This document shows, one piece after another, positions 49,090 through 52,989 of a stretch of DNA of 64,000 bases (its first letter is position 1; every line of letters begins with the position of its first letter). The notes under the pieces are model-generated. The model was not told where the DNA came from. It saw only the letters and a list, made by a program, of their open reading frames with translations, and made no database searches. The position numbers were made by a program, and so were the translations under genes. Origin of the DNA: Alkalihalobacillus sp. AL-G (lineage in GTDB: Bacteria > Bacillota > Bacilli > Bacillales > Fictibacillaceae); the NCBI RefSeq assembly GCF_030643805.1, contig NZ_CP094656.1, positions 3,906,001 through 3,970,000 of the forward strand. Reading direction: 5' to 3'.

Positions 49090-49134
49090 TAAAAAAGAGA
49101 TTGACTCAAAAGCGAGAAGCTCCTCGTCAATCTC
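49090..49134 (-). terminator. Intrinsic terminator after the DsbA/FrnE gene
   Basis: GAGATTGAC (49097-49105) pairs with GTCAATCTC (49126-49134), followed by TTTTTT on the minus strand. Its presence shows the full transcript unit of the gene above is intact. Confidence 0.85.
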
Positions 49135-49155: not shown

Positions 49156-49800
49156 TTAGCAGCCGTCAATTCCACAGGACATACCGTTCATATCGGAATC
49201 ATCGTTCGATTGTTTCTCCAGCTCGCTATCAATTATAGCTTCAAGTCGATCGGCTGGATAAAGACCTTGTAATTTGCGATCACCGATGAAAAAGGATGGT
49301 ACCGCGGCTATGTTTTGCTCTCCCGCTTCCTTCAGCGCTTGTTGGTGCTCTTCCCTAAACCTTCTTGATTCAACAGCTTCACGATAATCGTCCCTATTTA
49401 GACCTACATCGTCCGCAAGATCGGTTAACACATCAAGGTCTCCAATGTCTTTCCCTTCCACAAAATAAGCTGTAAACATCCTGTGGTTGTATTCATTGGC
49501 AAGCTCTTTTGTTTTCGCATATTGAAACCCTTCAAACGCTAGATGTGTATGTGGCTGAACAGGGGGAAGGTTCATTTCTACACCAAGCTTTTGCGAGAGC
49601 GGCTGCACGGACTGTCGCCAACCATTTTGGATATAGTCGCCTTTCGGGTCAAGCGTCGGTGTCGGGTAAGGTCGAAGCTCAAACGGCTTCCACTCGATTT
49701 CAACATCCTTGCCTTTCATCGCTTCCTGTAGCGGAGCCTCCGCTAAATAACAGAATGGTCAAACATAATCCGAATATATTTGAATCTTTAGAGTCATCAT
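49156..49800 (-). CDS. DsbA/FrnE-family thiol oxidoreductase with in-frame UGA at the active-site Cys (candidate selenoprotein)
   Basis: Thioredoxin-fold disulfide oxidoreductase of 214 residues if the TGA at 49759-49761 is read through. The start ATG at 49800 (or 49797) has AAGGAGGAG directly upstream. Translation begins MMTLKIQIYSDYV, then TGA, then PFCYLAEAPLQEAM: family members have SDYVCPFCYL here, so the TGA replaces the first Cys of CPFC and would give UPFC. After it the frame is intact to 49156, with the cis-Pro loop NIAAVPSFFIGDRKLQGLY and a Cys-rich end MSCGIDGC. A hairpin 13 bases after the TGA fits bacterial SECIS rules. Alternatives: a nonsense mutation or read error (TGT to TGA), or a restart at ATG 49719 that would lack the redox site. 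Confidence 0.75.
49726..49753 (-). promoter_or_regulatory. SECIS-like hairpin after the in-frame UGA
   Basis: Counting from the base after TGA, bases 14-20 (UAGCGGA) pair perfectly with 24-30 (UCCGCUA) around a GGC loop. A lower helix CUG (6-8) with CAG (31-33) is separated by a U-rich bulge. The apical loop starts with G, 20 bases after the UGA, within the range described for bacterial SECIS elements. Confidence 0.55.
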
Positions 49801-49887
49801 TTCTCCTCCTTTTTTGTTTCCTCTCATTGTACTCCTTTTGAAGTTGGGCAAAAAGAAAAACGAACTGATCTGGTCTCTTTCCACAGT

Positions 49888-50404: not shown

Positions 50405-52756
50405 TCATCCGACTTCCTGCTCCAATTCCTCTACCCTTTTTTCAAGGTATTTCGTGTCCTTTTGGGCATGGAAGGTTTCAGATTTTTCAACAATGACTGC
50501 TGTGTTGTATTCAGGGATTCCCGCGTGCTTTTCATAAACACCTTTCGGGATAAGGACATTCCCCTCTGGCCAGTGAACCTCGATATTGCCAGGCTTTACA
50601 TCAACGAATTTTGCTTTCCCGTGGAATAGACCGAACTTATTGTAAACGACGATTGCTTCACCTGCTTGAATGCCGTACTTTCCTCCGTCTTCAGCATTCA
50701 TCAGCACATCATAACGGTCCGCATCATTGAACGGATCTTTTTCAGAGTAGACCATCGAGTTGAATTGCTTGCCGCGTCGTGTCGTGACATAGAACAAACC
50801 TTCTGCTCTTCGCAATTCCGGGATATCCATCGCGATCAAGTTCCCGTTCCCGTCTGGTGTTGGGCAAACACCATCTTCACAAAGCCATGCACCACCCCAC
50901 TGGAACACATCTCCCTTTTCCTTAAGGTGTTGGATACCGTCATAATTCGGTGCCGCTTTAGCAATTTCGTCGCGGACTTCCTGTGCATTGTTAAAATCTA
51001 TCAGATGCTGCTGCTCCGGTTTCACCCGTTTTGCAAGATCAACATAGATTTCCCATTCGGAACGAGCCTCTCCGATACGAGGTCCTTTGATTTCAGGGGA
51101 AAAATAGACCATCCGCTCCGTCGAGGTCGATGTACCTCCGCCAGGCTGCTCATAACGTGTCATCGCCGGAAGGACAATGACTGCTTCCTTCGCATCGGCA
51201 AACGTGGACGTATTGAAGATGATGTCCTGATGCACTCGGATGTCAACGCCTTCAAGGCACTCTTTTACAAAGTCCGGATCCGGCATCGTTTCCAAGAAAT
51301 TTCCGCCAGACATATAGTAAAGCTTCAGCTTCCGTTCATGGTCCTCTGGAAGCAAGGCGTTTTCAAGACTGACGCCTACAATATCACCTTGCCATTTCGG
51401 AATATCAAAGTTCCAAACCTGCTCAAGCCGAGAAACATTTTTTTCATCAAAACCACCGCCAGGAAGGACGAAAGGATCTGCACCCATCTCCCCGGAGCCC
51501 TGTACACCTGAATGACCGCGGATCGGCATCACACCGCAATGCTCCTTACCGATATAGCCTTGTAAAAGAGCAAGGTTCGCCACTTGGGATACATTATCTG
51601 TACCAAAACGATGCTGGGTCAAGCCCATCGACCAGACGAATACCGCTGATTTCGATTTTGCAAGAAGAACAGCAAGCTCCTCCATCCGACCTTTGGAGAG
51701 CCCGGATGATTGTTCAAGGGTTTCCCAATCGTAAGACTGCACTTTCACTTTGAGCTCATCTAATCCGTTCACATGCTCTTGAATGAACTCGTGATTGATC
51801 GCAGAACCTGGCTCAGATGCTTCCATCTCAAACCAATGCTTCATAATTCCGTGCATGAAGGCGATATCACCACCAATGTTCACCTGATACACATCGTCTG
51901 CGATTTTCGTTCCGAACAAGGCAGACTCGGCAATTGACGGAATCCAGTATTGATCCATCGAAGGCTCATGGTACGGGTTGATGACGATTATCTTTGTCCC
52001 TTTACGCTTTGCTGCATACATGTATTTTGTAGAAACCGGCTGATTGTTTGCAGCTACCGAACCCCAGAATACGAGGACGTCGGTACCGATCCAATCCTTA
52101 TAATTACAGCTCGATGCCCCGATTCCCATCGAACGGCTCAAAGCTGTTTTAGAAGGTGAATGACAAATTCGAGACGCATTATCGATATTGTTCGTGCCGA
52201 GGAAACGTGCTACTTTCGCTGCTGTGTAGTACGATTCATTCGTTATCCCGCGTGACGTCAAGTAAAAACCGTATTGCTTCGCGTCGATTTTCTTAATTTT
52301 TTCAGCAATCGTAGTTAAGGCTTCATCCCATGATAGACGGCTGAATTTCTTCTCTCCTGGTTTACGGATAAGCGGATATGGGATTCTTCCAAGCTTCCGA
52401 AGCTCAGTACTGCTTTTTTTCCTAAGCTCATCAATATCTGCATGAACAACTTCCGGCTTCATTTCAGACATTGTATTAAGGCGAAGTACATTTAGGCGGG
52501 TTGTGCATAAGTGCGGCCCCTGGAGAGTTTGATCCTGTAGCCCCGCAACCCCGAGTGCACATCCGTCGCATACCCCCTGTGTCAAAATCCGTGTTGCGTA
52601 AGGTAGGTTATCCTTGTTTTCCCATGCAACCTTAATGGTGTCACGAATATGATGCGGTTTGATTTTACCGAGGCCAAATGGAACCTTACTGGCCCATAGC
52701 GAGGGATCCGGCGCTTTTGAGATTTTCATCGGTCCAGTGTGTTTTGTTTTCCCCAT
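50405..52756 (-). CDS. FdhF/YdeP-family molybdopterin oxidoreductase
   Basis: Molybdenum enzyme of the formate-dehydrogenase-H-like YdeP group, about 783 residues; role and substrate not established (YdeP is tied to acid resistance in E. coli). N-terminal Cys pattern GVCDGCALG with HLCTTRL later fits a 4Fe-4S site of this group. At the molybdenum-ligand position it has RICHSPSKTAL, so Cys where FdhH has Sec. MPIRGHSGVQGSGEMGADP and the C-terminal molydop-binding domain (FYVTTRRGKQFNSMVY) complete it. ATG at 52756 with GGAAGGGG seven bases upstream; another ATG is two codons earlier. No twin-arginine signal, so cytosolic. Confidence 0.9.
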   Translation of the reverse strand: MGKTKHTGPMKISKAPDPSLWASKVPFGLGKIKPHHIRDTIKVAWENKDNLPYATRILTQGVCDGCALGVAGLQDQTLQGPHLCTTRLNVLRLNTMSEMKPEVVHADIDELRKKSSTELRKLGRIPYPLIRKPGEKKFSRLSWDEALTTIAEKIKKIDAKQYGFYLTSRGITNESYYTAAKVARFLGTNNIDNASRICHSPSKTALSRSMGIGASSCNYKDWIGTDVLVFWGSVAANNQPVSTKYMYAAKRKGTKIIVINPYHEPSMDQYWIPSIAESALFGTKIADDVYQVNIGGDIAFMHGIMKHWFEMEASEPGSAINHEFIQEHVNGLDELKVKVQSYDWETLEQSSGLSKGRMEELAVLLAKSKSAVFVWSMGLTQHRFGTDNVSQVANLALLQGYIGKEHCGVMPIRGHSGVQGSGEMGADPFVLPGGGFDEKNVSRLEQVWNFDIPKWQGDIVGVSLENALLPEDHERKLKLYYMSGGNFLETMPDPDFVKECLEGVDIRVHQDIIFNTSTFADAKEAVIVLPAMTRYEQPGGGTSTSTERMVYFSPEIKGPRIGEARSEWEIYVDLAKRVKPEQQHLIDFNNAQEVRDEIAKAAPNYDGIQHLKEKGDVFQWGGAWLCEDGVCPTPDGNGNLIAMDIPELRRAEGLFYVTTRRGKQFNSMVYSEKDPFNDADRYDVLMNAEDGGKYGIQAGEAIVVYNKFGLFHGKAKFVDVKPGNIEVHWPEGNVLIPKGVYEKHAGIPEYNTAVIVEKSETFHAQKDTKYLEKRVEELEQEVG

Positions 52757-52989
52757 GCTCATTCCCCTTCCTAAAAAAATAAAAATATTTATATGTGTTT
52801 TATCTAATGTTAAAAAATACGAACTATTTATTAGTTTAATAGTAGTATGAAAGCGGCTTCAACGCAACTTCTGTCATTTGGATGAAACGTGTTCGGGAAT
52901 CAAAGATCAGTCGTTTCTCATTTTGAATCAGTGGGTTTGCAGCTGGGCCGTTCGTTCATACTGTTAAAAAGGAAATTCGCTTACCGCTG

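Follow-up and report, generated by a model that had tools for sequence, protein, structure and literature searches.

DsbA-like selenoproteins, in which selenocysteine (Sec, U) occupies the active site as U-x-x-C, were predicted in 2005 in the Sargasso Sea study, under the label COG2761 (PMC1088965), and tables from 2006 place them in Anaeromyxobacter, Desulfovibrio desulfuricans and Desulfotomaculum reducens (PMC1794560). A 2016 study counts 45 such proteins in 41 organisms and describes 40.4% of Sec users as aerobic and 35.8% as anaerobic (PMC5029168), and a 2026 review characterizes DsbA-like form 1 by PF01323 and UxxC (PMC13188914). The published members have in common with the protein described here the Pfam domain, the U-x-x-C motif and a bacterial SECIS after the UGA. 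Among proteins of known structure, the closest match to the protein described here is Deinococcus radiodurans FrnE (DR_0659; 5co3, 5cnw, 5xwh), with which it shares the DsbA-like fold, the CPxC site, a C-terminal C-X4-C and perhaps a cytoplasmic location, but which differs in carrying Cys in place of Sec and is 23–24% identical in structural alignments. The Deinococcus C-X4-C has been proposed to assist in restoring the active site (PMC8945050).

The window, a 64,000-nucleotide stretch of the Alkalihalobacillus sp. AL-G genome (NZ_CP094656.1, positions 3,906,001 to 3,970,000), contains a gene that, judged from sequence comparison, is very probably a real selenoprotein gene; since DsbA-like UxxC selenoproteins have been predicted from 2005 on, it adds to an already known family. 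Its features, in window coordinates, are as follows.

49156..49800, minus strand: predicted FrnE/DsbA-like selenoprotein coding frame (frame reading; PF01323 DSBA; FrnE fold), 213 aa from the ATG at 49797 or 214 from the ATG at 49800, with the stop codon at 49156-49158
49803..49809, minus strand: ribosome-binding site GGAGGAG, from sequence
49759..49761, minus strand: in-frame TGA, putatively read as selenocysteine, aligning with Cys of relatives
49750..49752, minus strand: TGT, the second (resolving) Cys of U-P-F-C, invariant as C16 in alignments
49729..49745, minus strand: SECIS-like hairpin TAGCGGA-GGC-TCCGCTA, 7 bp with a 3-base loop
49159..49176, minus strand: C-terminal CGIDGC (C-X4-C), as in Deinococcus FrnE
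49113..49126, minus strand: weak intrinsic-terminator-like stem-loop

The protein begins MTLKIQIYSDYV-U-PFCYLAEAPL..., with the TGA on the first Cys of CPFC, and the predicted Sec is residue 13 of the 213-aa form, in the U-P-F-C motif. This TGA is the only stop inside the frame, and the chance of an otherwise stop-free frame of 213 codons is about 4e-5 under uniform codon usage. The GGAGGAG lies 2 and 5 bases ahead of the two possible ATGs, while the table-11 ORF, with its start at 49719, excludes the active-site motif. On each of these points, namely a single TGA on the first Cys of CPFC in an otherwise open frame, a well-placed ATG with a ribosome site, and a standard annotation that starts at 49719 without the active site, our re-reading agrees with an earlier, sequence-only reading of this DNA; the terminator that it also proposed comes down to the single weak stem-loop listed above, no more than shuffled sequences yield (1 found, 0.9 expected). 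Upstream of the gene, at 50405-52762 on the minus strand, lies an FdhF/YdeP-family molybdopterin oxidoreductase (862 bits to TIGR01701) without an in-frame stop.

The genome that contains the window is complete (4.16 Mb, a single contig) and encodes the full set of Sec genes that the sequence-only reading had proposed to look for: selA (561 bits, cut-off 268), selB (354.6 bits, cut-off 242), selD (419.3 bits, cut-off 125) and tRNA-Sec (57.7 bits, gathering score 47), the last also called by ARAGORN with anticodon tca. All four lie together in one locus, within about 9 kb. The selD gene has its own in-frame TGA (GG-U-GCK; L010:16907-16909, equivalent to C1:2046907-2046909 of this genome, G000, minus strand), so that SelD is probably itself a selenoprotein and, by its sequence, a second Sec-coding example in the same genome. 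The formate dehydrogenase model searched, TIGR01591, has three matches here, none over the cut-off and none with an in-frame stop, and therefore the Sec machinery probably serves other proteins. The selB-selD interval (L010:12353-15867) holds a family-4 glycosyltransferase that weakly matches SenB (90.7 bits, cut-off 300) and a PhnCDE-type ABC transporter. The binding protein of the transporter also scores 174 bits (cut-off 250) to TIGR04553, a putative selenate binder; going by these resemblances, a function of the interval in selenium uptake or selenosugar metabolism is possible.

The protein has a match in 33 of 34 genomes of its family. Within the genus of the window, seven of eight genomes carry the gene, each with one TGA, and the six other than AL-G encode proteins 67–73% identical to the window protein; the eighth (G028) has selA and no match to the protein. 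The 30 family loci kept for comparison comprise 12 TGA forms, seven from the same genus and five from Fictibacillus, and 18 Cys forms, and Fictibacillus species alternate TGA and TGT at the Sec codon. Among the best 80 of 588 GTDB relatives, 25 loci have TGA, in Aneurinibacillus terranovensis, Bacillus dakarensis, Neobacillus piezotolerans, Mesobacillus zeae, Mesobacillus subterraneus, Salipaludibacillus and Salinibacillus, among others. The Cys orthologues of Fictibacillus and other Bacillales reach 61% identity with the window protein (in Parageobacillus caldoxylosilyticus) and have the same P14 and C16 in the motif, two residues that do not vary in the alignments. They differ in the codon, which is TGT or TGC, and in the hairpin, which 71 of the 72 distinct forms lack. 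Relatives thus exchange TGA for TGT or TGC at exactly this codon and keep the hairpin with TGA while nearly always losing it with Cys, as the checks suggested by the sequence-only reading had anticipated. In a tree of 126 proteins with the active-site and SECIS columns masked, the best topology implies nine Sec/Cys changes, of which the well-supported branches force only one, and there are too few independent pairs for a pairs test; repeated switching between Sec and Cys is suggested by these sequences.

Several TGA forms carry labels from outside the Bacillota. They occur in metagenome-assembled genomes labelled Planctomycetales/Planctomycetota and Acidobacteria (L068, L072, L077, L074), and one labelled Pseudomonas sp. 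ISL-84 (L067) groups with Bacillaceae and is perhaps mislabelled; either mislabelling or transfer would account for such labels. Bacillus sp. V5-8f holds a Cys copy and a Sec copy in one genome (L051, L084).

A bacterial SECIS is a hairpin with a short apical loop containing G, located shortly downstream of the UGA, and the hairpin behind the TGA of the window gene matches this definition in both its loop and its position. The 7-bp stem begins 14 bases past the TGA, the GGC loop begins 21 past it, and the folding energy is -9.2 kcal/mol. The seven base pairs and GGC loop described in the sequence-only reading stand, while the hairpin start that it placed 20 bases downstream is in fact about where the loop begins. 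Its bulged lower stem lacks conservation: at positions 8 and 9, beneath the hairpin, pairing differs freely from one to another of 54 TGA forms. For comparison we used 140 loci, 30 of them from a pattern search that fixes part of the stem and leaves wobble bases free, which reduce to 126 distinct 60-mers (54 TGA forms and 72 Cys forms). Scored as present at five or more pairs, the hairpin occurs in 53 of 54 TGA forms, whereas a single one of the 72 Cys forms has it (Fisher 2e-33, relatedness ignored). All 34 matches of the pattern search carry GCGGAG, and the reversed pattern has no match in the same 397-genome search. The codons GCG-GAG-CCG for Ala-Glu-x-Pro are used in all 54 TGA forms versus 3 of the 38 Cys forms that share this residue pattern, from which we infer that the hairpin RNA is under selection beyond that on the protein.

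The loops of the 54 TGA forms are GGC (27), GGT (15), GTT (11) and GTC (1). In L015, the sole TGA form without a scored hairpin, an A-A mismatch takes the place of the closing pair, and by eye five pairs still form around a larger loop. Conversely, the sole Cys form with a hairpin, that of Fictibacillus phosphorivorans AMY 19.1.2 (L023/L092), combines TGT with an intact 7-bp stem and a changed loop, and its sequence is probably that of a SECIS relic, a fossil of a recent Sec-to-Cys change. Compensatory covariation was not found in the stem, where pairs 2–4 are identical in all 54 TGA forms of this family; since the stem core is invariant, covariation is uninformative within the family, and it is the synonymous constraint that speaks for the RNA element. 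Folding energies of TGA and Cys forms differ (p 3e-7), a comparison to which we attach little weight because some Cys forms also fold strongly, to -19 kcal/mol.

Across the order, represented by 397 genomes, the pattern search finds the TGA form in 34, and the 30 of these matches that were read are 49–100% identical to the window protein. The gene selA is over its cut-off in 181 of the 397 genomes, so that the rarity of Sec in Bacillaceae, stated in the sequence-only reading, cannot be extended to this order. Of the 34 genomes with the TGA form, 33 match selA strongly, at E about 2e-138 or better (Fisher 2e-11, relatedness ignored). The exception, Pseudalkalibacillus salsuginis EGI L200015 (G030), has in its assembly no selA match, no selB over the cut-off, no tRNA-Sec over the gathering score and no isopentenyl-isomerase match, and a search of it for SelD, SelU, thermonuclease and LexA returns only three distant partial matches at 28–33% identity. 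In its sister G031 these genes, LexA included, lie on one 35-kb stretch. Because LexA is gone from G030 along with the sel genes, the sequence comparison makes a missing contig, that is, an assembly gap, the most likely explanation, rather than loss of the trait. G031 also encodes a tRNA 2-selenouridine synthase, MnmH/SelU, near its sel locus (L181:1781-2845). For each of selA, selB and tRNA-Sec, G031 has a pair of matches over the cut-off, spread over contigs C81 and C89; they may be a second copy or a contaminant (listed contamination 5%).

These comparisons bear on three readings in which the TGA does not encode Sec. A standard-code reading does end at the TGA, as it would in a pseudogene in which a once-Cys gene has suffered a nonsense mutation, leaving the ORF from 49719 either dead or with a fragment as its product, but the same single TGA persists in the six other gene-bearing genomes of the genus at 67–73% protein identity, and the constraint on hairpin and codons and the co-occurrence with selA also argue against decay, leaving this reading hardly credible. 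A sequencing error or assembly artefact that turned TGC or TGT into TGA has nothing observed in its favour and a practically negligible chance, as the same codon recurs in independent genomes (34 of 397 in the order, and 25 of 80 among the best of 588 GTDB relatives). Readthrough of UGA is known in bacilli, and a reading in which general reassignment or leaky readthrough inserts Trp or Cys could point to the TGA form in G030 without a selA match; yet G030 also lacks close matches to LexA, SelU, SelD and the nuclease, as expected of an assembly gap, the genome of the window has a complete sel locus with tRNA-Sec, the hairpin is tied to TGA, and it is the redox Cys whose place the codon takes, so that we regard decoding without Sec as very unlikely. 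All three were rejected on these grounds. Nothing that the sequence-only reading had named as telling against it was found: the sel genes are there, the re-read codon is neither TGT nor TGC, and relatives show no other disruptions at the locus. Its central claim, that the gene is decoded with selenocysteine, is supported by the sel genes, the codon alternation and the TGA-linked hairpin.

The remaining alternative accepts a selenoprotein and questions its role, and here the fold is informative. With the Sec position given as C, the protein scores 111.7 bits to PF01323 DSBA (cut-off 25.6), so that the U-x-x-C arrangement and a PF01323 score over the gathering threshold are both found; it reaches no NCBIfam cut-off. 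Its AlphaFold2 model (pLDDT 94.5) has as its five best PDB fold matches only structures of Deinococcus radiodurans FrnE (TM 0.83–0.86 on the query; 0.86 to 5co3), and FrnE is also its best PDB match by sequence, which bears out the FrnE label given in the sequence-only reading as far as fold is concerned. The model also resembles 2-hydroxychromene-2-carboxylate isomerase (E 6.6e-10), YjbH (E 3.2e-8) and kappa-class GST (E 1.2e-7), as would be expected if the selenoprotein were a YjbH-like adaptor or an isomerase- or GST-like protein instead of a disulfide reductase. FrnE is nevertheless closer both by fold (E 4.8e-14) and by sequence (E 1.5e-14 vs 5.5e-6 for the isomerase), and the U-P-F-C motif and C-X4-C tail suit a dithiol enzyme; we consider such another role unlikely.

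We therefore return to the FrnE-like reading, in which the gene product is with high probability a cytoplasmic thiol-disulfide oxidoreductase of DsbA fold whose attacking residue, the N-terminal Cys of C-P-F-C, is selenocysteine. In the model the MTLKIQIYSDYV start sits directly on the first beta strand, which would leave no room for a signal peptide. By the known bacterial Sec pathway, SelB would bind the hairpin 14–30 bases past the UGA on the ribosome and deliver Sec-tRNA to the UGA. In the mature enzyme the selenolate would attack a substrate disulfide, Cys16 would resolve the mixed selenide-sulfide, and the active site would be re-reduced by the C-X4-C tail, thioredoxin or bacillithiol, the first of these being modelled on what has been proposed for Deinococcus FrnE and its tail. 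Many, not all, FrnE members are described as having the C-X4-C. The window protein ends SCGIDGC, and 26 of the 54 TGA forms have the motif, as do 31 of the 72 Cys forms. The other 28 TGA forms lack it, and in 25 of these the final 25 residues contain no Cys; with Cys forms so similar in frequency, a tail step would be neither general nor tied to Sec. Most likely the enzyme would reduce or isomerise cytoplasmic disulfides under oxidative or metal stress, its substrate, reductant and physiological role being inferred from homology.

A second predicted FrnE selenoprotein, MHIEMWTDFA-U-PFCYIGKKRLEDAIKQ..., has a TGA at the same active-site position and a hairpin of its own, AGCGTCT-GGA-GGACGCT, and occurs in Fictibacillus loci L164-L169, L171 and L172. 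It is 28% identical to the window protein and closer to FrnE (E 1.4e-48 to 3gl5 and 2.8e-48 to 5cnw; 167.8 bits to 5cnw vs 57.6 for the window protein). Its pattern matches 51 of the 397 genomes, all of which match selA strongly (Fisher 5e-20, relatedness ignored), and has no match in the genome of the window. Frames were read for 20 of the 51 matches and for the eight Fictibacillus loci, some of which come from genomes among the 51, and the resulting 28 distinct proteins are 62–100% identical to L166, 23 of them with a C-X4-C tail. Their hairpin has at least five pairs in 24 of 26 distinct 60-mers and only three in L208 and L210. Both FrnE selenoprotein patterns occur together in 16 genomes, and one or the other in 69 of 397.

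Set against the published DsbA-like examples, the present ones belong to Bacillales (the Pseudalkalibacillus group, Fictibacillus and others) and form two FrnE-type lineages about 28% identical; partial identity with published examples is possible, the comparison having been made by description, not by sequence. Our search of the literature, which excluded supplements and most subscription journals, returned no report on the spread of FrnE-type selenoproteins in Bacillales. Judged by title, papers on FrnE with selenoprotein include none on this gene and those on selenocysteine or selenoproteins in Bacillaceae nothing related, and a search for Fictibacillus with selenocysteine found none; broader searches brought up overview papers on selenoproteomes and work on other subjects.

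For this order of Bacillales, Sec genes are common (selA over the cut-off in 181 of 397 genomes), and the standard code strips the active site from genes such as this one during annotation. Many genomes of this spore-forming branch may retain Sec for the sake of FrnE-type cytoplasmic disulfide reductases and SelD, not of formate dehydrogenase, with Sec-to-Cys switches apparently under way between Fictibacillus sisters, a picture that we offer tentatively, as possible rather than probable. F. phosphorivorans, with its apparent SECIS relic, would have made such a switch, and the natural Sec/Cys pairs of Fictibacillus sister species would allow a direct test of the benefit of selenium to a disulfide reductase.
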